Below, in pieces: positions 13,065-23,859 of a DNA stretch of 32,778 nucleotides (its first letter is position 1; each line of letters starts with the position of its first letter). The notes beneath the pieces were generated by a model. It was not told the DNA's origin. It searched no databases and was given only the letters and a program-made list of their open reading frames with translations. The translations under genes were made by a program, and so were the position numbers. Source of the DNA: a bacterium (lineage in GTDB: Bacteria > Vulcanimicrobiota > Xenobia > Xenobiales > JADMJV01); assembly GCA_030149525.1 (NCBI GenBank), contig JASBRJ010000078.1, positions 1-32,778 on the forward strand. The letters are read 5' to 3'.

Positions 13065-14819
13065 TTGGGGAATGAAAGACGAAATCTCGATGACGGATCC
13101 GGTAAGACCTGTTTGGTCGACGGTTCCATGGTGGGAAAATATCAGGTAGAGCTCCTCGGCGTAGGCGGCATGAGTGTCGTCTACAAAGGCATGCACCGTG
13201 GTCAGTTCTACGTTCTTAAGGAAGTTCAGGATTCCAACACCGTCGATGTCCCCTCACTTCTCTCGGAAAAGTCTCTTCTAGAGCGCCTCGATCACCCTGG
13301 TTTGGTGGATTTCGAAGAGTTGATCCATCAAGACGGCTACTACTACATGGTCGTCGAGTACGTTCCCGGACGGCCTCTCTCCGACTGGCTTAACTCAAAT
13401 CTAGTAGCAAGCTATGAGGAGGTGATGGACTGGGGAATTCAGCTGGCTGAGATTTTCGCCTATCTTCACAGTCAGAATCCACCTATTATCTATCGGGATC
13501 TCAAGCCCGAGAATGTCCTTCTTCAGGGAGACCAGATTCGCTTGATCGATTTTGGAATCGCTCGTATCCATAAAGGAGACAGAGAGCGGGACACCTCCCT
13601 CTTCGGGAGTATCCACACCGCTTCGCCGGAGCACTACGGCAGGGGAGAGACCGACTCTCGTTCTGATATCTACACCCTGGGAATGACCCTTTATCTTCTC
13701 CTCACCGGTGGCAAGGTGGAAAAGGTTGGCACTTTTCAAGTCAAGCCGGTCAGTCAGCTTATACCCGAAGTGCCGGATGAGCTCTGTAAGGTGATTTCTA
13801 AAGCTGTCGAGGTAGAGCCGGAAGACCGTTTCCAAACGGCTGAAGAGTTTCGAAGCGCATTGGTGGCCGCATCCGGTTTGCCGGAAGACGGCTTTATACG
13901 CCAGGAAGCCACCGTGCCTCTCGAACAGCTGGGCCTATCCTCCGCAGATTTTGGAAGCCCGGAGAAGCCAACGGGAAAGAAACGGATCTTGATTGCGGGC
14001 TTAGTTTTGCTAGTGGGGCTTGCCGGTCTCTGGGGGACAGGACAGTTGCCGCCGGTTCCTTCTGAAACTCCGGTCCAGACAGAGCTAGCTCATGATCACG
14101 ACGGCGACGGGAGACCCGATCATTCACCCGGCGAGCATGAGGAAAATCCCTATGGTGGAACGGCGTCAGGCTTGGAACATCTCAACATTCCGGGAGACAT
14201 TTTCAGCTCCGGGAAAGTTGGGGACGACGATGTTTTGCTTTTGGGCGAGGACGTAGGTCTCTTCGGTGTTACCGGGTGGGACAATCTTGACGGAGCGGGG
14301 AGAGCCGAATTGCTGGCCAAGAGACTGAACGGATTTTACCATCAGTTCTGCCCTCTTTGCGGAGGGTCGAAGCTCGAACTGGGGGACATTAAGGTAGGAC
14401 GACATACCAAGACGAAAGATGTTGCTGTCTTTTACGCCCACCAGCACGAGGATGGAAGGGTTGTCTCCGGCCCTCTGCTGCTGGCAACAGTCAACGATCC
14501 TCAAGCCTCGAAAGCCGGCACTACTCCGAGATTTTTGGCCTCATACTGGCGAGACCTTTTGCGAGATACCGTTCAGATTTCAAGGGGACTGGGCAGCCGT
14601 CAAACAGTGTTGGGTGAAGACCTGGAAGAGGCTCTGATCCGGGCCAGAGAAGCCGTCAAGGTGGGAGAAGTGAGCACTGCTAATCTCAAGGAAGTTCTTC
14701 GCAGTGTCACCGGTCAGGAAGCTGTGAGACTCCGAAAAGTGTACCTGGAAGTTCCCGGGAACAGCCCCAGTTCCGACGACTTCAAGGGGATTGCAGACTA
14801 CGAGCCGTTGAAGATCTAG
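13065..14819 (+). CDS. Membrane-anchored Ser/Thr protein kinase with extracytoplasmic domain
   Basis: 584 residues from a TTG start, supported by GGAGG at 13052-13056 eight bases upstream. The N-terminal Hanks-type kinase domain (about 24-270) has the glycine loop GVGGMSVVYKG (32-42), Lys52, Glu68, YRDLKPEN with Asp145 and Asn150, and DFG at 162-164. All catalytic residues are intact, so it should be active. One membrane helix lies near 309-327. Outside is a DHDGDGRPD segment resembling calcium-binding thrombospondin/EF-hand-like loops, then a sensor-like domain of about 190 residues containing CPLCGG and GPLLLATVNDPQA. The ending LATVNDPQ...LASYWRDLLRD is reminiscent of a periplasmic domain common in cyanobacterial-type proteins, tentatively. 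It is convergent with the large operon. Confidence 0.88.
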   Translation: MGNERRNLDDGSGKTCLVDGSMVGKYQVELLGVGGMSVVYKGMHRGQFYVLKEVQDSNTVDVPSLLSEKSLLERLDHPGLVDFEELIHQDGYYYMVVEYVPGRPLSDWLNSNLVASYEEVMDWGIQLAEIFAYLHSQNPPIIYRDLKPENVLLQGDQIRLIDFGIARIHKGDRERDTSLFGSIHTASPEHYGRGETDSRSDIYTLGMTLYLLLTGGKVEKVGTFQVKPVSQLIPEVPDELCKVISKAVEVEPEDRFQTAEEFRSALVAASGLPEDGFIRQEATVPLEQLGLSSADFGSPEKPTGKKRILIAGLVLLVGLAGLWGTGQLPPVPSETPVQTELAHDHDGDGRPDHSPGEHEENPYGGTASGLEHLNIPGDIFSSGKVGDDDVLLLGEDVGLFGVTGWDNLDGAGRAELLAKRLNGFYHQFCPLCGGSKLELGDIKVGRHTKTKDVAVFYAHQHEDGRVVSGPLLLATVNDPQASKAGTTPRFLASYWRDLLRDTVQISRGLGSRQTVLGEDLEEALIRAREAVKVGEVSTANLKEVLRSVTGQEAVRLRKVYLEVPGNSPSSDDFKGIADYEPLKI

Positions 14820-14846: not shown

Positions 14847-15965
14847 TTAGCCCTCAATCAGTTCGAGATTGGCCCGAGGTAGGGTGAACTTTTCCCCACT
14901 GTCGAGTTCAATCTCCGCTACTCTGACCTTGGCGCCGGAAGGGATCACCTCCGGCTGAACCGGGAGACCCGTGACTTTGCCCAGTTGGCCGAAATGGGGC
15001 TCCCTGATGAGGCGCACGGCGCATCCGATGGCAAGTTCAAGCTCGGGAGCATCTTGAGCGTTCTCCCAATCTCCGTCCAGATCGGTGACGATGATTTCGG
15101 GCCGAATCACACCTGCTCGAATCTGGGTAGCGCCGGACACCGACGCTCTTTTACCGACTCGAGCCTTTAAGAGTTCGAATGTCTTCTGGGCGATTCCCAG
15201 GGGCCCAAAGCCCTCCGTCACCACAACGGTGACCCCCAGCTTCTCATTGCCCGTAATGGCCACTCCGAGGTCGTAGCCCAACAGCTCTCTCACGTCGGAG
15301 TCGTCGATGCCACCGGCCACCACCGCAGAGACCTGATACTGGGCAGCTTTTCGAACCATTTCAGCCGTGACCAGGCGTCCGACCACCAGAACCTTTCCCT
15401 TATGCTCAGGGAGAATAGCCCCCGCCGACAGAGTGTCGTCGGGCTTCTGGCAGGCCAGGCAGATAGGTCCGCCGGTCTCTGAGCCCAGGCCGAAGATACC
15501 TTGAATCAGAGAGCCGAAGGTTTTGACAACGACCCCCTGATTCGGTTCAACTTCCTCCACCACGCCGTCCACGTAAGCTTTGATGTCGATAGGTTGGGGC
15601 TCCCGGCGAAGAATGACCTGACCTGTTGTCTTGGAGACCGACTCCAGTGTGCCGGTGATGGGCGACTTATAGGGTGACTTGAAGAATCCGAAGAAGCCTT
15701 TAGAGTAGGCAAGAATCTCATCTTTTTCGATCTTGTCCCCCTCTTTTTTGAGCAGAATATCCGGTAGTTCGGCCGCTCCTACACCAAGTTTAGAGGCGAG
15801 ATTCACCATCTCCACCCGTCCCGGAAGAAGAGTCCTGGCGACCACCTGGTCCCATTTGACTCGATCTCCTTTCTTGGCCTCAACCTGACCCGCTAACGGC
15901 AGGCGGCGGCTGAAATGGAGCAAGGCTCCGGGAGTGACTTTGAGTCCTGGAGTATAAGCACCCAT
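14847..15965 (-). CDS. Conserved protein of unknown function with sandwich-hybrid-like and KOW-like segments
   Basis: 372 residues, last gene of the block. The first 140 residues include LPLAGQVEAKKGDRVKWDQV and SPITGTLESVSKTTGQVILR, two beta-rich stretches with the spacing of barrel-sandwich hybrid (biotinyl/lipoyl-like, NqrA/RnfC N-terminal-like) domains, although no modified Lys in an MKM motif is seen. A CLAC motif occurs at about 167-172. Residues about 190-270 read as a Rossmann-like domain (GKVLVVGRLVTAEMVRKAAQ, SAVVAGG). The C-terminus (about 325-370) looks like a KOW-type beta-barrel. No signal peptide or membrane helix, so probably cytoplasmic. Its ATG overlaps the GlmL-family stop by one base (TAATG). 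A scaffold or cofactor-carrier role in a membrane complex is inference. Confidence 0.75.
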   Translation of the reverse strand: MGAYTPGLKVTPGALLHFSRRLPLAGQVEAKKGDRVKWDQVVARTLLPGRVEMVNLASKLGVGAAELPDILLKKEGDKIEKDEILAYSKGFFGFFKSPYKSPITGTLESVSKTTGQVILRREPQPIDIKAYVDGVVEEVEPNQGVVVKTFGSLIQGIFGLGSETGGPICLACQKPDDTLSAGAILPEHKGKVLVVGRLVTAEMVRKAAQYQVSAVVAGGIDDSDVRELLGYDLGVAITGNEKLGVTVVVTEGFGPLGIAQKTFELLKARVGKRASVSGATQIRAGVIRPEIIVTDLDGDWENAQDAPELELAIGCAVRLIREPHFGQLGKVTGLPVQPEVIPSGAKVRVAEIELDSGEKFTLPRANLELIEG

Positions 15966-17797
15966 TAGTGACCGGCTCCTTTGAAGTCGGGGTAGAGTTG
16001 CAAAGATTCATTCCATTTGGAGAGGTAGTCCAGACGGTCTTTTTCCGACAGATCAGTAACGGCGTTTTGAAAGCTGAACGGTCGTCGACCTCTACCGTCG
16101 AAGATGACGCCCACGGTACCGCCGTACAGTTCGCATTGGAACGATGTGCCGGGACCGGCGCCCATATCAAGTCCTCTGGCCGGGTGGATGGTGACTTGAG
16201 TGGGCCCGAGGTCTCGCTCCCTCTGCTTGACGATCATTTCACCACCCCGAACGGTCAATTTCTCCCCATCGATCTGAACTTCCATGGCTGTTTCCCCCGG
16301 TTTCACACGACCCACAGGAGCCACACAATCCCCAAGATAGATGAGGCAATCTCGTTCGAAAACTTGAGTGGCCGCGTCAGGATGAACCTCGGCGAGAACA
16401 CCCAGTTGAGGCATCATAAAGATACTGTCCACGGTGAGTGTGGTGACGCCTTCGGGGAGAAAAGAGTCGATGAGCATCATAGCGGTCTGGTGGCGGCGAG
16501 GGGCGTGGGAAAGAACTCCGCCTGAGCCGATGAGCATGTTCACTTTACGCATATCGATGAGAGTGTCGCTCTCCTCGTCGCCTAGACCGAAGAGGGCCGA
16601 GAGATCCGACTTCTTTTGAACACCTTTGAGGCCGGTGACCAGTGATTTGTGCTGATCGAAGGAGAGGCGAAGAGCTTCTCGCGCCATGGCTTGTTCTAAA
16701 ATCAACTCCTCCAGGAGATAGGGGATGGAGGTGGGGCGGATCATCTTGTTTTTGATCCGATTTCGCAACTCGCGCTCGTCCAGGGAAAAGGGGACCCATC
16801 GCATGACCTGCTCGTGGCCTGCTTCCGCGTAAACGTTGGAAAAGGAGTAGCTCATTCCAAAGTTTGCTGAGACGGTTCGGTTGAAGACTCCGTCGAGGAC
16901 GGAGAAGACGTCGGTGGTGGCTCCACCGATATCCACACCCACGATGTTGATCTCATCTCGTTTGGCAATAGTTTCCATAATGGAACCCACCGCTGCCGGG
17001 GTGGGCATGATCTCCTCGTCGGTCATCTTCATGAGATTGGGATAACCGGGTGCGTGAGCCATGACATGTTCGAGGAACTGCTCTTGAATCTTGAGGCGAC
17101 TGGGCTGAAGATTCTCCTTGTCCATGGCCGGGCGGAGGTTGTCTACAACTTCTAAGGCGGTCTTCTTTGCCAGGGTCTCTCGGATGGGCTCCTGGGCATC
17201 TTTGTTACCGGCGAAAATCACCGGAAGCTCGTAGGCGATTCCCAGGCGGGGCTTGGGGTCGGCTGCGCCCACAACCTGAGCCAGTTCCACTACATGCTTC
17301 ACGGTGCCGCCGTCCACTCCGCCTGCTAGAAGCAACATGTCGGGGCGCAGTTGTCGGATCAGTTCGATCTTCTCGTGGGGCAGGCGTCCGTCGTTCACGG
17401 CCAACACATCCATCACAATTGCTCCGGCACCAAGGGCGGCTTTCTCGGCGCTCTTGGCCGTCATCTCACGAACCACACCGCCCACGACCATCTGCAATCC
17501 ACCGCCTGCCGACGAAGTGGAGAGATAGATGTCGATGCCTTGATTTTTCTCTCGGTCGTAGGGTCGTATCAGTTCGCCATTCTCATCCAGAAGAGGTCTG
17601 CCGATCAATTCGGAGACCTCCCGTACCGCATTCAGGACTCCCTGAGTTACATCTTCGGCGGGAGCCTCCACAGTGGTTGGGGCTTCCCCACGGACGGCCA
17701 GACGGTAGCCGTCCTCACCCCATTCAATGAGGATGCATTTCGTGGTGGTACTGCCACAGTCGGTCGCCAGAATAGAACGAATTTTCGGCTCGCTCAT
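15965..17797 (-). CDS. GlmL/MutL-family ASKHA ATPase, not linked to a glutamate mutase
   Basis: 610 residues, longer than classic GlmL (about 460). ASKHA nucleotide-binding motifs are visible: ILATDCGSTTTKCILIEW (9-26, phosphate-1), IVGVDIGGATTDVFSV (about 283-298, phosphate-2) and MLIGSGGVLSHAPRR (about 425-440, adenosine). The family (PF13941) includes GlmL, the companion protein of adenosylcobalamin-dependent glutamate mutase. No GlmE or GlmS gene is in the window. The extra C-terminal ~150 residues contain VAPVGRVKPGETAMEVQIDG and a beta-rich tail. It overlaps the 86-residue gene by four bases upstream. Likely a cytoplasmic ATPase that activates, assembles or remodels the membrane proteins of this operon; this is inference. 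Confidence 0.85.
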   Translation of the reverse strand: MSEPKIRSILATDCGSTTTKCILIEWGEDGYRLAVRGEAPTTVEAPAEDVTQGVLNAVREVSELIGRPLLDENGELIRPYDREKNQGIDIYLSTSSAGGGLQMVVGGVVREMTAKSAEKAALGAGAIVMDVLAVNDGRLPHEKIELIRQLRPDMLLLAGGVDGGTVKHVVELAQVVGAADPKPRLGIAYELPVIFAGNKDAQEPIRETLAKKTALEVVDNLRPAMDKENLQPSRLKIQEQFLEHVMAHAPGYPNLMKMTDEEIMPTPAAVGSIMETIAKRDEINIVGVDIGGATTDVFSVLDGVFNRTVSANFGMSYSFSNVYAEAGHEQVMRWVPFSLDERELRNRIKNKMIRPTSIPYLLEELILEQAMAREALRLSFDQHKSLVTGLKGVQKKSDLSALFGLGDEESDTLIDMRKVNMLIGSGGVLSHAPRRHQTAMMLIDSFLPEGVTTLTVDSIFMMPQLGVLAEVHPDAATQVFERDCLIYLGDCVAPVGRVKPGETAMEVQIDGEKLTVRGGEMIVKQRERDLGPTQVTIHPARGLDMGAGPGTSFQCELYGGTVGVIFDGRGRRPFSFQNAVTDLSEKDRLDYLSKWNESLQLYPDFKGAGH

Positions 17798-18054
17798 CGG
17801 GGCTCGGCCTCCATCAGTCGCTCCATTTCCAGCAAGAGTTCTTCCAGGTTTTCTCGGCTTTCGAAGATCGAGGTAAGGTCTTTATGCCAGGGGGAAAGTC
17901 CGCTCATGGCTGCCAGGGGAGTGGTGGCATAGAGTGTTTGCTGAGCCACCAGAGAGAACGGTTTGAAGGCTTCGATGAAGAAGACGGCAGGTGTTCCCAG
18001 GCCGCGTTGGACGAGCTCTTTGGCAATTCTTTGATGAGGCGCTACGACGTTCAT
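17794..18054 (-). CDS. Small conserved operon protein (86 residues), unknown
   Basis: The protein starts at ATG 18054 inside the end of the PH-like membrane gene (4-base overlap) and ends within the start of the GlmL-family gene (4-base overlap), so it is surely translated as part of the operon. It has an amphipathic N-terminal part (APHQRIAKELVQRGLG, TPAVFFIEAFKPFSLVAQQ), then a C-terminal helical tail rich in Glu and Leu, ENLEELLLEMERLMEAEPR, that could form a coiled coil. No membrane helix is evident; FFIEAFKPFSLVAQQTLYA may touch the membrane. It may be an adaptor between the ATPase and the membrane partners. Function unknown. Confidence 0.7.
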   Translation of the reverse strand: MNVVAPHQRIAKELVQRGLGTPAVFFIEAFKPFSLVAQQTLYATTPLAAMSGLSPWHKDLTSIFESRENLEELLLEMERLMEAEPR

Positions 18055-18458
18055 GCTGCTCTCCTCGTAAGGCCTTGTTGCAGACAGAATTCCGCCACCT
18101 CATTGCGTTGCTCCGGACGGAGCGGCAAGAAGACTCCTCGTTGCCCTTCGGTGGCTCGCTTTTGATGGTAGGGGGAGAGAAAGATTCCGTTTCGGTCTTT
18201 TTGAAATGTTCTGAATCTGTGCCAGGCATACTGTCGAGTGGGTTTGAGGGGGCCTCGAACCAGGATTCCGCTCTCTTCGAATATGTACTGTGTGGGCAAG
18301 AAGAAGTCTCTCAGGGAGAAAACGGAGGCGGTCCACAAGAAGATAGCCACCATGGGGGGGACCCACTGCCACAAGGCCTGGGCCAGGATTCCGAAAGAGA
18401 AGGCCAGCAGCAAGGCGGTTTTCGGTCGATCTTTGGCGGGATGAAATTCGATCATCAA
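18051..18458 (-). CDS. Two-helix membrane protein with bacterial PH-like cytoplasmic domain
   Basis: 135 residues. Two hydrophobic segments, about residues 14-30 (TALLLAFSFGILAQALW) and 34-52 (PPMVAIFLWTASVFSLRDF), form a hairpin in the membrane. The following 80 residues, with LPTQYIFEESGILVRG and QYAWHRFRTFQKDRNGIFLSP, have the strand pattern and the Y-x-F...GI...R...W..F order typical of bacterial PH-like (bPH2/YdbS) domains. It overlaps the 222-residue gene by four bases upstream and the 86-residue gene by four downstream. Probably a structural or regulatory subunit of the membrane complex. The PH-like reading is moderately sure. Confidence 0.72.
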   Translation of the reverse strand: MMIEFHPAKDRPKTALLLAFSFGILAQALWQWVPPMVAIFLWTASVFSLRDFFLPTQYIFEESGILVRGPLKPTRQYAWHRFRTFQKDRNGIFLSPYHQKRATEGQRGVFLPLRPEQRNEVAEFCLQQGLTRRAA

Positions 18459-19123
18459 CCCACCCCCAGAATGGCCTGAATCATGGGCCAGAACTCGTCT
18501 CGAAAGAAGAGCACCCGGCCGATGAGAAGCGAGATTCGAGCCATCACGGTGTAGCCGAAGGACGCCCCTAGGGCGATCATGAGAACCCAGATTCCGATTC
18601 GAGCACCGGTCCCGAAGACCAGGCCCTTGTGTGGCACTGAGAAGTAGAAGTAGATCATGCCGGTGAGCAATCCGAACACCAGAATCCAGTTGACGATAGT
18701 GGTGGCGATGTCTACGCCGCCCGCCGGGTAGAAAGCCACCAGCGGTTTGAACGAGGCCGACACCTGTTCGATGATCATGGAGTCCATGGTGAACACAATC
18801 TGCAGACCGGCGTACATTCCCACCAAGAAGCAGAGGGGCCAGCGGGCCACCCAGGCGGTCTTGGGCGAGAGTTGGAACAAGAGCATGATCCCTAAGATGA
18901 GGGGAATGAGGGCGAGCAGTTTCCCCGCTCGCAGCGGGTCCACGATCTCGGGCTTAATGGTGCCCCAATAGCCAACGCACATCCAGTAGCCCGCAGACAC
19001 TCCCACATAGATATGCTCCGCCAGTTTGTAGAACGGATTGTCGCCAAGTAGGAACGAGAACACGCACAGAGTCAAGAATCCTGAGATCCAGAGCCCCACA
19101 ATCTCGTTGAGTTGGTATTCCAT
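18455..19123 (-). CDS. Multi-pass membrane protein of the DUF6754/GlmL-type operon
   Basis: 222 residues with about six predicted membrane helices, beginning near residues 8-28 and then 38-55, 66-84, 90-112, 130-160 and 175-200. Distinctive parts are the loop NPFYKLAEHIYVGVSAGYWMCVGYW (two halves) and the AFYPAGGVDIATTIVNWILVFGLL segment. No known transporter or enzyme signature is recognised. The ATG is at 19123, one base after the stop of the 278-residue gene, and the end overlaps the PH-like gene by four bases. It is one of the integral subunits of the block; an ion or small-molecule path is possible but nothing shows it. Confidence 0.75.
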   Translation of the reverse strand: MEYQLNEIVGLWISGFLTLCVFSFLLGDNPFYKLAEHIYVGVSAGYWMCVGYWGTIKPEIVDPLRAGKLLALIPLILGIMLLFQLSPKTAWVARWPLCFLVGMYAGLQIVFTMDSMIIEQVSASFKPLVAFYPAGGVDIATTIVNWILVFGLLTGMIYFYFSVPHKGLVFGTGARIGIWVLMIALGASFGYTVMARISLLIGRVLFFRDEFWPMIQAILGVG

Positions 19124-19124
19124 C

Positions 19125-19961
19125 TTAGCCGCGGCCCTTCTTGTTCAAAAATTGAAGAAGAGTGAGGATGTTGGCCAGAATGATGAGTCCGGCAACCGTA
19201 AAGTGAGCAATGGATTGAGCCTCCATACCTCCGGTTGCGGTGCCCTTAAACCCGGCCAGTTTCTCGTACTCGGCCGCTCCTCGGAGACCCCCGATAATTC
19301 CCACAACCTGACCGGAGTCGAAGTAAGGGAAATATTGGGGCGTTTGCACGGCAGTGGTGCCGACGACAAGCGGCATTCCGTACTCCGAGGCGGTAATTCG
19401 AATGTGTTCCAGAGCCCCTGGGAATCCGGCGGAGTAGGTGGCCACCAGGGCAAACTGCTTCAGCTGGGTCACGTCGCGCAACATGGGTATTTCGCTCAGG
19501 GGTTTCCCGCGAGTATCGGTGGGAAATTGACTTCGAAAGTCGAGGCCCATCTTCAGAGGCACGGCTTCGTTGCCTGCCTTGTAGCCGAGGTTAACGTAGT
19601 CCACGCCTTCCTCTTTGTCTTTGTGCAGCTCTTTAATTCGGCTGATGAGTCGATTGGTCAGCGCTTGCCCCTCGGGATAGAGAGCCATGAAAGCCACTTT
19701 TTGTCCGTGATTCATCACCTGGTCACAGGCGGCAAGCGCCATGGGTTCGAGTTCCACCGCCGTAGACGGGCCATAGTCAATGCTCATCAAGACCAGGGCA
19801 CCCTTGGGAAGGTCTTCATAGGCCTTGAAGCTCGCCTCCACCGAGGGAGTGACCTTGATGGGCAGCCCCATCGGGTTCATGAGAGGCAAAACCACGGAAA
19901 GTAGGACGATCAAATAGATATAGCGGCGATCCAGGTGGATCAGTTTGTCAACCCATTTCAC
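19125..19961 (-). CDS. Double membrane-anchored alpha/beta domain protein of the operon
   Basis: 278 residues. A membrane helix near residues 14-30 (YIYLIVLLSVVLPLMNP) and another near 252-272 (AHFTVAGLIILANILTLL) flank a soluble domain of about 220 residues. With one helix at each end, that domain most likely lies outside the cytoplasm. Its strand-helix alternation, LVLMSIDYGPSTAVELEPMA, KVAFMALYPEGQ, VDYVNLGYKAGNEA, FALVATYSAGFPGAL and PLVVGTTAVQTPQ, suggests a Rossmann-like or periplasmic-binding-like fold. No catalytic motif is recognised. It is followed one base later by the 222-residue gene. Possibly a binding subunit that senses or presents a ligand. Confidence 0.75.
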   Translation of the reverse strand: MKWVDKLIHLDRRYIYLIVLLSVVLPLMNPMGLPIKVTPSVEASFKAYEDLPKGALVLMSIDYGPSTAVELEPMALAACDQVMNHGQKVAFMALYPEGQALTNRLISRIKELHKDKEEGVDYVNLGYKAGNEAVPLKMGLDFRSQFPTDTRGKPLSEIPMLRDVTQLKQFALVATYSAGFPGALEHIRITASEYGMPLVVGTTAVQTPQYFPYFDSGQVVGIIGGLRGAAEYEKLAGFKGTATGGMEAQSIAHFTVAGLIILANILTLLQFLNKKGRG

Positions 19962-19963
19962 GG

Positions 19964-20620
19964 TTAGTCTCCTCCCAGATAGGAGCGTTCCACTCCCAAA
20001 ATAATTTTGAGCGACACCGAGATGAGCCCGATAGCCGAGGCGATCTGGATGGCTCGTTGTCCGGCGTTGTTGAATCCGCCCATGATAAAAGTGTCGATAA
20101 AATAGCTGATGGGGAAGTTGTCACCGAAGACTCCGCCCCAAAGAACCTCGCCCAGAGGGACCCGGAACAGCATGACCAAAAAGGCTGAACTCAGTAGCAG
20201 AGTGGATTCCACCGAACGGGCTTTAAAGGCGCGATAGGAAGCCGACGCGATGAAGAAAGCGGTCAGGCTGAACATGGTGGCCGAGAGTGGATTGAAGATG
20301 TAGTCGAACATCCAGTAGAAAGCCGTATTCTCATCGGTGGGCTGGTGACCCGGATAATTGAAGAAAAGGCCGATGATGAGTGTGGCGGTGAGACTGACGA
20401 GGAGAACCAGATTGAAAACCCAGTCTTTAGCTCGATCGCGAATTTTCTTGCCGTTCACTCCATACAAGCTGATAGCCGCCAGAACGTAGGCGAAGGCAGT
20501 GATGGCCTGAAACCAACCGGCCAATTCTTTGCCGATGAAGTTCAGCGGCACGAAGTAGTACTGGGCGATCAGCAAAAGCCCGGACAGAAAAGTGACGAAA
20601 AGCGGTCCCTGGCGTTTCAC
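19964..20620 (-). CDS. Multi-pass membrane protein of the operon (about six helices)
   Basis: 218 residues with about six hydrophobic helices starting at residues 7-27, 33-53, 67-88, 106-125, 140-155 and 190-208. Notable loops are FFNYPGHQPTDENTAF, FDYIFNPLSATMFSLTAF and MGGFNNAGQRAIQIA. None matches a transporter or respiratory-complex signature I know. The start ATG overlaps the stop of the DUF6754 gene by four bases and the stop lies two bases before the next start, so translation is coupled. Together with the 222-residue gene it probably forms the membrane core of the complex. Confidence 0.75.
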   Translation of the reverse strand: MKRQGPLFVTFLSGLLLIAQYYFVPLNFIGKELAGWFQAITAFAYVLAAISLYGVNGKKIRDRAKDWVFNLVLLVSLTATLIIGLFFNYPGHQPTDENTAFYWMFDYIFNPLSATMFSLTAFFIASASYRAFKARSVESTLLLSSAFLVMLFRVPLGEVLWGGVFGDNFPISYFIDTFIMGGFNNAGQRAIQIASAIGLISVSLKIILGVERSYLGGD

Positions 20621-23058
20621 GAGAATTTCACTCCAATAAATTCGTAGAGGTTGTGCAAGAGAGGCGGGCCGCCGGTTATAGACGCATAGGTGACATCGAG
20701 GGAAACCAGTACCAGAGTGATCATCACAATGGCTTTGCCCACGTCTTGACCTCGTAGAGAGCCCACCTGAAGGGGATCTCCCGAGAGGTAGGCCGAGGCG
20801 GCGAAGAGTTCCTCACCGATCAGGGTGTAGTCACAGGCGGCCACGAAGAAGGGGAGTTGATTGGCCTGGGCGGTGCCGGCAATCTGGATGGCTCCGGTGG
20901 CGTAGCCTGTTTCGGCAAAAATGAGGGATTCGGCGTAGAATTTACCCATATAAAAGTTGGCCGCCGGTTCTTCTCGAACCATCAGCCCGTCCACCCCGGC
21001 GGCATAACCGAACTGGTCGTCGGAAATGTAGCGGACCGACTCTAAAGAGAAGGCTTCAGGGCGACCGGCGATCGTGAACGCGTCACGGACCACTTCCTGG
21101 GCGGCCGAGAAGGTCACGGCGCGAGAGGTGGTGGCCAGAATCGAGGTGTCGTATTCGGCTGTTTTTTTCGCCACATGACTGAGGATAGAGAGGGCGGCCA
21201 GAGTCTGGATGTCGTCCACGTCGGCAAGTCCGGTGACGTAAAGAACCGGCTTGCCCATCTCGGTGGCTCGCCCCACGGCTTCATCCAGGGCTTCTAGTCC
21301 GGCGATGCGGCGAATGAAGAGTTTCTTTTTGCCGGCCAAGTAGATGTAAACGATGAGGGCCAGGCAAATGACCACGACCCCAATAAGATTCAGGGTTCGC
21401 TGGCTGTTGAACAGTTCGTTGAGCATCACTTTCTTTTGCAGTTGACCGTTGAGGCCGAAAAGCAAGAGATTCCGAGTGGTGCGATTGGTCGCCACCAGAC
21501 CGAGACTGTTGTCCCATCGAATCATAGCTGGTCTGGAATCGTCGAGGGGGAGGGACTCGGAGGTCCACTGGACTTCACCGGATACGGGGTCAAGAGCAGA
21601 CAGTCTGTTGTCCTCCGTGGTGAAGAGAACGGGTCCGTCTTTGGCCAAAAGAGGCCATTCGTCATCCGGCAGACGCGCTGCTGCGGGAGCTTCTCCTCGA
21701 GGGAGGTCGAGGGTCCAGGCGGGCCTTCCGGTGGAAGCGTTAACCGCATGAATGACGACCTTGGGATAAGGATATCGGTGGTTGAATTCTCTCGACTCAC
21801 CCGGTCGGTTGGGAGGCTCGGTCTGGGTTGCGTAAATGAGTCGGTCTCGGACAATCTGAACCGGGCCCACCAATCTCGAGCGAGGTTCAATGACCACGTT
21901 TTGCCAGGTGTTCATCTGGTTTAGAAGATAGATGGCGTGACCCTTGACCTTGTAGGTACTGTCTTCGCCCGTTTCCAGGTTCTTCACGACGTTGCCGTGA
22001 CGATCCACCATAACTTCGTTGAGAACCGTCTCCGTCACCAAAAAAGTGAGATGGCTGTCTTGGCTGGCCGCAGTCAGAACAGTTTGAATCTCTTCCTTGC
22101 CCAGATTTCCGCCTGAGGTCTCTCCGCTCAGCCGGAATCCCATATTGAAGATGCCCTGATCCTCGTAGGAGAAGAGAGTGTGAAGGATGCCCTGATCTTC
22201 GAAGAAGGATGCGTCGGCCAACTTCATCTTTTCATTGAAGACCACGGGAGAGCGGAACTGCCTGCGACCGCGACCGGGAGTGAGGAACTCAAACCAGAGC
22301 CCGTGATTGAGCACAAATCCACCGTTCTTCAGGCCCAATGCATCTCGGGGGTTGGTGGTGAGCGGTGCCATGGCCGATTCGTCGACCAACAGAAACTCCT
22401 TCGATTTTTTAGACCACAAGAGAAGTCGATCTGCTGAAGGTGTGGCCTGAACATCTTGAGAGGAGAACGGATAGGGCTGAGGCTCCGGAGACTCCAGGCT
22501 TTGTCCCGTGAAGACAACGTAGGTACCGTTCTTTAGGACAAGACAGAGGCGCTGCGAGTCCAGGGCGTAAGGTCCATATATGATGCCGTCGGTGTCGTAG
22601 CCCTCTACCTCACCGGTGGGTGAGACGAGCTTGATGCTGTCGTTTTGCCGAACCACCAGAGCGTCGCCCCAGGGGACCACATCACGAACCGGTTTCTTCT
22701 CTTTTTCGTCAACCTCAAGTTGGGGCCAAAGCGGTGTGGCGGTGTCGTCTTTGACCACCAGAACGAGGTCGGGGGCGACAGCGACAAAGGCGTTTTCCCA
22801 CTTGTCGGTGGGTTGATAGAGCCTCTCATAGATGCGGTTTTTGTCGCCCAGCCCCTCTGGAAGCTTTTTTAGCTGACCCTTCTGATCCAGAAGTAGCAAC
22901 TTGCTCTCATCCAGGAAGAAGCGACCGGCCGAAGTCTGGGCGCCCTGGTGGAGGGGTTGAGACCAGGCGGGCATCAGTAAAAGCATGAAGGCGAGAACGG
23001 TCTTGGAGAGACTCGCTCGGCTTGGGACTCGAAAGCCTATGGTACCAGCCTTGGTCAT
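20617..23058 (-). CDS. Exported beta-propeller fused to a DUF6754 domain
   Basis: 813 residues. A signal peptide or anchor lies at about 17-37 (SLSKTVLAFMLLLMPAWSQ). Residues about 40-545 are beta-rich with recurring WD/PQQ-like strands, for example VNASTGRPAWTLDLPRG and ALDPVSGEVQWTSESLP, forming an extracytoplasmic propeller. A membrane helix at about 552-572 leads into a domain of about 200 residues, GLEALDEAVGRATEMGKPVLY onward, carrying the DUF6754 pattern: DIQTLAALSILSHVAKK, YDTSILATTS, FGYAAGVDGLMVREEPAANF, ETGYATGAIQIAGTAQANQL and ACDYTLIGEELFAASAYL. A last helix at about 776-797 follows. The domain is probably cytoplasmic, though orientation is inferred. Function unknown. First gene of the coupled set, 51 bases after the SDR gene; AAGGAG occurs about 30 bases upstream, too far to be its ribosome site. 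Confidence 0.85.
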   Translation of the reverse strand: MTKAGTIGFRVPSRASLSKTVLAFMLLLMPAWSQPLHQGAQTSAGRFFLDESKLLLLDQKGQLKKLPEGLGDKNRIYERLYQPTDKWENAFVAVAPDLVLVVKDDTATPLWPQLEVDEKEKKPVRDVVPWGDALVVRQNDSIKLVSPTGEVEGYDTDGIIYGPYALDSQRLCLVLKNGTYVVFTGQSLESPEPQPYPFSSQDVQATPSADRLLLWSKKSKEFLLVDESAMAPLTTNPRDALGLKNGGFVLNHGLWFEFLTPGRGRRQFRSPVVFNEKMKLADASFFEDQGILHTLFSYEDQGIFNMGFRLSGETSGGNLGKEEIQTVLTAASQDSHLTFLVTETVLNEVMVDRHGNVVKNLETGEDSTYKVKGHAIYLLNQMNTWQNVVIEPRSRLVGPVQIVRDRLIYATQTEPPNRPGESREFNHRYPYPKVVIHAVNASTGRPAWTLDLPRGEAPAAARLPDDEWPLLAKDGPVLFTTEDNRLSALDPVSGEVQWTSESLPLDDSRPAMIRWDNSLGLVATNRTTRNLLLFGLNGQLQKKVMLNELFNSQRTLNLIGVVVICLALIVYIYLAGKKKLFIRRIAGLEALDEAVGRATEMGKPVLYVTGLADVDDIQTLAALSILSHVAKKTAEYDTSILATTSRAVTFSAAQEVVRDAFTIAGRPEAFSLESVRYISDDQFGYAAGVDGLMVREEPAANFYMGKFYAESLIFAETGYATGAIQIAGTAQANQLPFFVAACDYTLIGEELFAASAYLSGDPLQVGSLRGQDVGKAIVMITLVLVSLDVTYASITGGPPLLHNLYEFIGVKFS

Positions 23059-23109: not shown

Positions 23110-23859
23110 TTAGTATTTGATGCTCTCGCCACCGTCGAGGACCAACATCTGCCCTGTCATGAAGTCGGCTCCGGTTGCCAGCAGGGCTACCAACTCGGCC
23201 ACGTCGGCCGGTTGGCAAAGGCGTTTCAGGGGGATCCCGGCCACCAGGCTGTTCTTGAGTTCTTCCCCCGCCTCAACGACCCAGTCTTCTTCCAGAAGAC
23301 CACAGGCGATTGTGTTGCAGCGGACATGCGGGGCCAATTCGTTGGCCATGGACACGGTCATGGAGTGGAGTGCGGCACAAGAGGCTGCCAAAGGGGTGTG
23401 GGCACCCGTGAAAGCGGAAGTGCTGGTGACGTTGATGATCTTTCCGTATCCCAGGGCGTCCATGAGTCGGGCCGAGGCTCGACAAACATGGAAAGACCCC
23501 AGCACGTTGTGGTCGTAGGCTTCTTTGAACTCTTTGTCGGTGAGTTCCAGAAACTTCGCATCCGACCAGTGATGAATGTTGTTGACCAGAACATCCACAT
23601 GGCCAAAGATGTCGAGGGTGGCCGAAAGGGTCATTTCCACCGCTTCCTCGGAAGAGTAATCGAAGGGGAAAGCCAGAATTTTTCCGGGGTAGTCATGGCT
23701 TTGCAGTTCGAAGATTTCATCTTCGGGGCCGTTGATGATCAATTGAAACTCGCAGCCGGCCAGGGCGTGAGCGATCTCTCTGCCGGCCAGGCCGTTCCAA
23801 TCACTTATAAAGGCAACAGGGAAGTCCACGGGGCTCCCCTTCGTTTCCGATGGTGCCAT
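23110..23859 (-). CDS. SDR-family protein lacking the catalytic Tyr and Lys (probable non-catalytic)
   Basis: 249 residues with the overall Rossmann layout of a classical short-chain dehydrogenase: VDVLVNNIHH (NNAG position, 88-97), Asn118 in DHNVLGSFHVCRA, INVTSTSAF with Ser at 146/148, and the ending MTGQMLVLDGGESIKY. However the TGxxxGxG cofactor loop reads SDWNGLAG (19-26), and the YxxxK pair is replaced by Leu157 and Cys161 in PLAASCAAL. This suggests loss of usual redox activity, with a structural or ligand-binding role kept. It resembles FabI/FabG-like enoyl reductase relatives in outline. It lies 51 bases upstream of the DUF6754 gene on the same strand and may be the first gene of that transcript. 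Confidence 0.82.
   Translation of the reverse strand: MAPSETKGSPVDFPVAFISDWNGLAGREIAHALAGCEFQLIINGPEDEIFELQSHDYPGKILAFPFDYSSEEAVEMTLSATLDIFGHVDVLVNNIHHWSDAKFLELTDKEFKEAYDHNVLGSFHVCRASARLMDALGYGKIINVTSTSAFTGAHTPLAASCAALHSMTVSMANELAPHVRCNTIACGLLEEDWVVEAGEELKNSLVAGIPLKRLCQPADVAELVALLATGADFMTGQMLVLDGGESIKY

Follow-up and report, generated by a model that had tools for sequence, protein, structure and literature searches.

GlmL and Or-4, members of the MutL family (PF13941), share full-length homology and the ASKHA ATPase motifs with protein B of the locus described here, but B is about 150 amino acids longer and its partners are protein A and a membrane module rather than a B12 mutase. A second comparison is with Na+-NQR and Rnf, as homologues of A match, below cut-off, NQRA_N and, weakly, RnfC_N, and A would, like NqrA and RnfC, be a cytoplasmic protein tied to an inner-membrane complex. 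Unlike those complexes, however, the present system has an ATPase in place of the dehydrogenase, no redox cofactor motifs were found in it, and no relation of E, F and G to the Na+-NQR/Rnf membrane subunits could be detected (no Pfam match over cut-off and no PDB relative). ECF transporters possess a shared energising module of the ABC type. Here the likeness is by analogy only, in that one ATP module would serve several membrane modules; there is no sequence relation, and B is of the ASKHA rather than the ABC type. The DUF6754 family (PF20539), of which protein H is a clear member, is listed in Pfam without a function. In the open-licence PMC literature we found no paper naming the DUF6754 family and none on PF13941, and nothing found there on GlmL had a bearing on the system.

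The window, by which we mean the entire 32,778 nt stretch of DNA that was analysed, carries eight minus-strand open reading frames at 14847-23058 (Table 1), which are lettered H, G, F, E, D, C, B and A in the order of their transcription and whose coordinates agree with those of the original prediction. The start of H in the window is uncertain. Every junction was confirmed: B/C, C/D, D/E and G/H overlap by 4 bases and A/B by 1 base, and gaps of 1 and 2 bases separate E from F and F from G, respectively. This packing is more than chance because the same genes recur in the same order across phyla. Only H and B among the eight proteins score above a Pfam cut-off; the other six (A, C, D, E, F and G) match no family over a curated cut-off. 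The expectation of membrane subunits was borne out; as D, too, has two predicted membrane helices, their number is five of the eight. In the window 51 bases separate H from the short-chain dehydrogenase gene upstream of it, and in four related genomes (loci L031, L032, L033 and L094) this gene is again directly upstream of H; in the group to which the window belongs the operon may begin with it. A Ser/Thr kinase gene adjoins the operon, and no Rfam RNA was found in the window.

Table 1. Genes of the operon in transcription order, the gene upstream of it, and the predicted parts of protein H (nucleotide positions for genes, residues for parts of H).
Feature	Position	Strand	Remarks
Short-chain dehydrogenase	23110-23859	-	probable ninth gene; degenerate, without the Tyr-Lys catalytic pair (alignment)
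H	20617-23058	-	813 aa
G	19964-20620	-	GTG start, 218 aa
F	19125-19961	-	GTG start, 278 aa
E	18455-19123	-	222 aa
D	18051-18458	-	TTG start, 135 aa
C	17794-18054	-	86 aa, small conserved protein
B	15965-17797	-	610 aa
A	14847-15965	-	372 aa
H, signal-like helix
H, periplasmic beta-propeller	~36-545
H, first membrane helix	552-577
H, cytoplasmic alpha/beta DUF6754
H, second membrane helix	762-795

A DUF6754 alignment scan of named genome contigs gave at least 576 confirmed relatives, and the loci were searched with models of all eight proteins. Open reading frames in the fetched contigs were called mechanically, so that some of their starts are wrong, and the taxonomic labels were taken over from the depositors. 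Among the best 79 loci of these 576 or more relatives the labels include Zixibacteria, Cloacimonadota, WOR-3, Fermentibacterota, Armatimonadota, Acidobacteriota and Planctomycetota, together with Riflebacteria, Latescibacterota, Neomarinimicrobiota, Gemmatimonadota, Muiribacteriota, Methylomirabilis and Deltaproteobacteria. The order H-G-F-E is fixed in at least 89 cassettes from more than 10 named lineages among the matches listed. D-C-B-A precedes this cassette in some loci, with complete D-C-B-A-H-G-F-E runs numbering at least 12, and follows it in others, as in the window; its presence on either side indicates two modules that have been rearranged yet kept together. B and A are fused into a single protein at L096 and L107 of Neomarinimicrobiota, and again in a second set from Cloacimonadota (L143, L153). 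DUF6754 is encoded by 80/80 Zixibacteria genomes (mean 4.6 copies), 57/59 Cloacimonadota, 25/99 Planctomycetota and 3/99 Acidobacteriota, with complete Planctomycetota genomes among the carriers, and by none of 14 reference genomes. The set would have been only a local string of genes had its homologues not been neighbours elsewhere; since the order is conserved across phyla, the eight genes are one conserved system. The original prediction of a widespread system is thereby supported: in other lineages too, MutL-like genes lie beside DUF6754 genes or occur in the same genomes.

The same association is apparent when whole genomes are compared. In the phylum of the window, where 18 of 149 genomes have DUF6754 over the cut-off, 17 of these 18 have a strong match to MutL, as against 5 of the 131 others (Fisher p 5e-17), the sole exception being a genome that is 67% complete. 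Protein F occurs in 17 of the 18 and in 0/131 of the others, including genomes in which F and H are on different contigs; in five further genomes of the family to which the window belongs, H, F and B had no strong match. Among 99 sampled Planctomycetota, B is found in 21 of the 25 genomes with H versus 6 of the 74 others (p 2e-12), and in other phyla all 29 DUF6754 genomes have a MutL match, 28 of them over the cut-off. No B was found in viral contigs. Genomes contain from 1 to 7 DUF6754 genes and usually 1-2 complete B genes. In multi-cassette loci H, G, F and E have concordant distance matrices (r 0.80-0.88) only if the partners come from one cassette; reassigning the partners among cassettes within a locus reduces r to ~0.15, and 0/500 shuffles reach the observed value. 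In six three-cassette loci, mostly labelled Zixibacteria, 18/18 H genes are closest to the H gene at the same position in another genome, which implies three distinct paralogues kept in order. Taken together, cassette co-evolution and the copy numbers support the view that H-G-F-E is a tight unit and that the B-A module is shared.

Protein B belongs over its full length to the MutL family (E 2e-124) and shows 68% mean column identity across phyla. In 22 homologues the ASKHA phosphate motifs are retained, DCGSTTTK at 90% or more and DIGGATTD invariantly, and we infer from these intact motifs that B is an ATPase that hydrolyses ATP. Its earlier designation as a GlmL-type ATPase has to be given up: B scores 232 bits against an NCBIfam cut-off of 475 for GlmL and 219 against 600 for Or-4, which excludes it as GlmL, and the genes adjoining it are those of A and C, or gcvPB, and not those of B12-dependent mutase subunits. 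Protein A, which has 63% mean column identity in an alignment of 27 sequences, appears by eye to have an SH3/KOW-like C-terminus. A B-A fusion homologue matches Biotin_lipoyl (E 5e-8), and below cut-off NQRA_N (E 4e-4) and RnfC_N (E 0.004). A had been described as carrier-like; however, none of the 27 sequences reveals an invariant or nearly invariant lysine, so a lipoylated or biotinylated carrier is rejected, and the nearest profiles include the barrel-sandwich domains of NqrA and RnfC. Neither A nor B gave a convincing match in the PDB by single-sequence or profile search. The small protein C is conserved in a 24-sequence alignment and is retained beside B across phyla. D combines its two predicted helices with a PH-like domain (20-sequence alignment and topology analysis), and a homologue from Planctomycetota matches bPH_6 below cut-off (E 0.0035).

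The named MutL-family relatives of B are accessory proteins of B12 enzymes, and by analogy with ASKHA reactivases of the EutA and DdrA type B-A(-C-D) might act as an assembly or repair factor, using ATP to load, repair or reset an H-G-F-E unit that is itself powered otherwise. One or two complete B genes would then serve up to seven cassettes, and B is often located away from H in Cloacimonadota and WOR-3. On the other hand, H-G-F-E shows no sign of a cofactor or of an enzyme prone to inactivation, and A lacks a lysine conserved as a carrier site. We regard this as the main rival to a machine driven by B-A, albeit an unlikely one; a single B for many cassettes fits both equally.

In the membrane module, residues 548-786 of H match DUF6754 with an E value of 3e-108 (361 bits against a gathering cut-off of 27), and residues 436-502 match the BamB/PQQ propeller (PQQ_2, E 1e-6). 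The structure model has pLDDT values of mostly 85-98 in the DUF6754 region, and its propeller is poorly modelled; the significant Foldseek matches of H are to propellers (BamB and others) and to other beta structures. The "DUF6754 propeller" of the original prediction therefore conflates two parts of the protein, as DUF6754 is a separate C-terminal alpha/beta domain. The mean number of Lys and Arg residues in 55-60 homologues is 1.0 before the first helix flanking DUF6754 and 4.4 after it, from which this domain is predicted to face the cytoplasm; its invariant residues resemble a binding or active site. Searching the PDB with DUF6754, as a single sequence or a profile, gave nothing convincing.

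The charge bias in F is the reverse (falling from 3.6 to 1.0 across the first helix, again means of 55-60 homologues), and its six-strand alpha/beta domain, flanked by two membrane helices and modelled with a mean pLDDT of 96.6, is predicted to sit in the periplasm. Foldseek detected no structure in the PDB at E<=1e-3 for F, only weak generic Rossmann/GT-B matches. The models of F and DUF6754 have the same order of elements: two membrane helices enclose one helix and, after it, six strands in alternation with helices. Homology between them is unsupported, as profile comparison gave a probability of 3% and the soluble domains on their own did not outscore block-shuffled columns (135/150 and 36/150); accordingly the likeness is a parallel of fold. 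G has six predicted helices with both termini inside (hydropathy and Lys plus Arg counts, mean of 30 homologues). E has about six, with an ambiguous charge signal for orientation, and contains the invariant residues D28, N29, E36 and R196 in a 31-sequence alignment. The proposal that G and E are inverted homologues was unsupported, the topology of E being ambiguous besides. E, F and G have no sequence relative in the PDB by single-sequence or profile search; the propeller of H is the only part of the system for which a solved relative was found. G, E, F and DUF6754 show no similarity to a known transporter or to a channel-like family.

These features suggest that the eight proteins build a two-module machine in the inner membrane. 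H-G-F-E, the membrane module, would comprise about 16 membrane helices with DUF6754 on the cytoplasmic side and the F domain and the lineage-variable N-terminus of H in the periplasm. The second would consist of the cytoplasmic ASKHA-type ATPase B bound to the barrel-sandwich adaptor A, accompanied by the small protein C and the membrane-bound PH-like protein D. From the cytoplasmic side B-A may dock on the membrane module, using ATP to impose a conformational cycle on H-G-F-E; more speculatively, this cycle might move or extract an envelope substrate chosen by F and the outer part of H, and paralogous cassettes could perhaps serve different substrates with one shared energiser. We give an even chance to a two-module, ATP-linked trans-envelope machine of this kind, with transport as a tentative role. 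Supporting it are the fixed gene order, the modules that are rearranged but kept, co-occurrence, co-evolution, the B-A fusions, the copy numbers, the phosphate motifs, the topology of H and F, and nearby ExbB/ExbD and TonB-receptor genes. Counting against it are the lack of transporter likeness in G, E, F and DUF6754, the diverging neighbours, and a shared B that would equally fit a maturation factor. The earlier notion of one machine with a membrane core, external modules, a PH-like subunit and a cytoplasmic ATPase is consistent with the positive-inside analysis and with Pfam, except that the propeller is only lineage-specific.

A more specific proposal, which we put forward tentatively and consider somewhat doubtful, is that of a new class of trans-envelope machine. 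In it a membrane unit of four proteins, bearing alpha/beta domains with the same order of elements on opposite sides of the membrane, would be driven by an ASKHA ATPase and its barrel-sandwich adaptor, and paralogous units would share one motor, the three in Zixibacteria being an ancient ordered set. We know of no described transporter with ASKHA-powered energy coupling, and such a membrane machine would represent an energy-coupling design new among transporters. We rate the system as categorically new by its composition, its function being predicted. Its prevalence in Zixibacteria and Cloacimonadota, together with the identity of B across phyla, makes a part in the core biology of those groups likely, and the co-occurring genes and natural fusions provide concrete complexes to model and purify.

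Most neighbours of the loci vary, the strongest recurrent one being the glycine cleavage operon. Among the matches listed, gcvPB is the gene immediately before D or C in Fermentibacterota, WOR-3, Latescibacterota and two further lineages, L139 has gcvT-H-PA-PB-D-C-B-A-H-G-F-E-lplA in a single run, and lipoate/biotin ligase genes are near L140 and L116. With the biotin/lipoyl-type fold signal of A, this arrangement would fit a system tied to glycine cleavage and lipoyl metabolism, for example through a lipoyl- or folate-linked product at the membrane. The link is nevertheless absent from the window, from Planctomycetota, Zixibacteria and Cloacimonadota loci, and from most of the remaining ones; the gene order may have been inherited once; and the presence of GcvH in 38/38 carriers is uninformative, as it is near universal. 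This role is less likely, indeed quite improbable, and for the cofactor-dependent chemistry originally envisaged there is no direct evidence. In raw neighbour tallies some loci of WOR-3, Fermentibacterota, Zixibacteria and Planctomycetota have ExbB/ExbD genes close by, and in Fermentibacterota the gene after E encodes a TonB-dependent receptor. The neighbours point several ways, to glycine cleavage, lipoate ligase, acyl-AMP ligase and ExbBD.

The N-terminus of H also differs between lineages, being a propeller in the window and in L020, with weak fn3-like signals in several phyla and, in Cloacimonadota, regions of 700 residues that belong to no clear family; it is long or short according to lineage. 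Such a variable periplasmic part beside a constant cytoplasmic domain might read a signal that DUF6754 and B-A relay inward, and DUF4388 and roadblock-like genes after E in five WOR-3/Stahlbacteria loci, as well as the kinase gene beside the window operon, would be in keeping with envelope sensing. No output domain was found, however, G and E are large and conserved beyond the needs of a relay, and the invariant residues of DUF6754 look more like a binding or active site; sensing is therefore also among the less likely readings, with little probability in our estimation. The C-terminus of H can vary as well, one Zixibacterium H carrying an S49-peptidase extension.

Cloacimonadota genomes that encode a second, divergent fusion of B (MutL-family ATPase) and A (barrel-sandwich protein) also carry a cassette with an H (DUF6754 protein) of about 1000 residues (L156-L160), which means that there is a second version of the system. 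In L143, tldD-like genes lie near the B-A fusion. In locus L139 the new system stands between the glycine cleavage operon and a lipoate ligase gene.

Within the window's phylum, E (a multi-pass membrane protein, like G) is followed in some genomes by a second gene for F, a periplasmic domain between two helices (L022, L026); in WOR-3/Stahlbacteria loci E is followed by DUF4388 and roadblock-like genes and then by ExbB/ExbD genes. DUF6754 is also found outside standard cassettes: neither the peptidase fusion nor the lone genes adjoin G, F or E, and the genomes with lone genes have F and B at other sites. The short-chain dehydrogenase upstream of H lacks the catalytic Tyr-x3-Lys and has an altered glycine motif; it may be a partner protein with an NAD(P) fold but no enzymatic role.

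Features around the operon (bare coordinates, window) and in other genomes (L-numbered loci); D, two helices and PH-like domain; C, small protein
Feature	Coordinates	Remarks
Ser/Thr protein kinase-like gene	13065-14819	+ strand; converges on operon's end
Degenerate short-chain dehydrogenase	23110-23859	directly upstream of H; position kept in related genomes
Second F gene	L022:757-1584; L026:4187-5134	3' of E
DUF4388 protein and roadblock-like proteins	L043:9174-10031; L045:10060-10917	directly 3' of E; WOR-3/Stahlbacteria
DUF6754-S49 (SppA-like) peptidase fusion	L082:9485-11872	Zixibacterium
Lone DUF6754 genes	L035:11180-11941; L036:10517-11284	
gcvT-gcvH-gcvPA-gcvPB-D-C-B-A-H-G-F-E-lplA	L139:2612-14762	single run
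Second, divergent B-A fusion protein	L143:5957-8863; L153:6047-8953	Cloacimonadota
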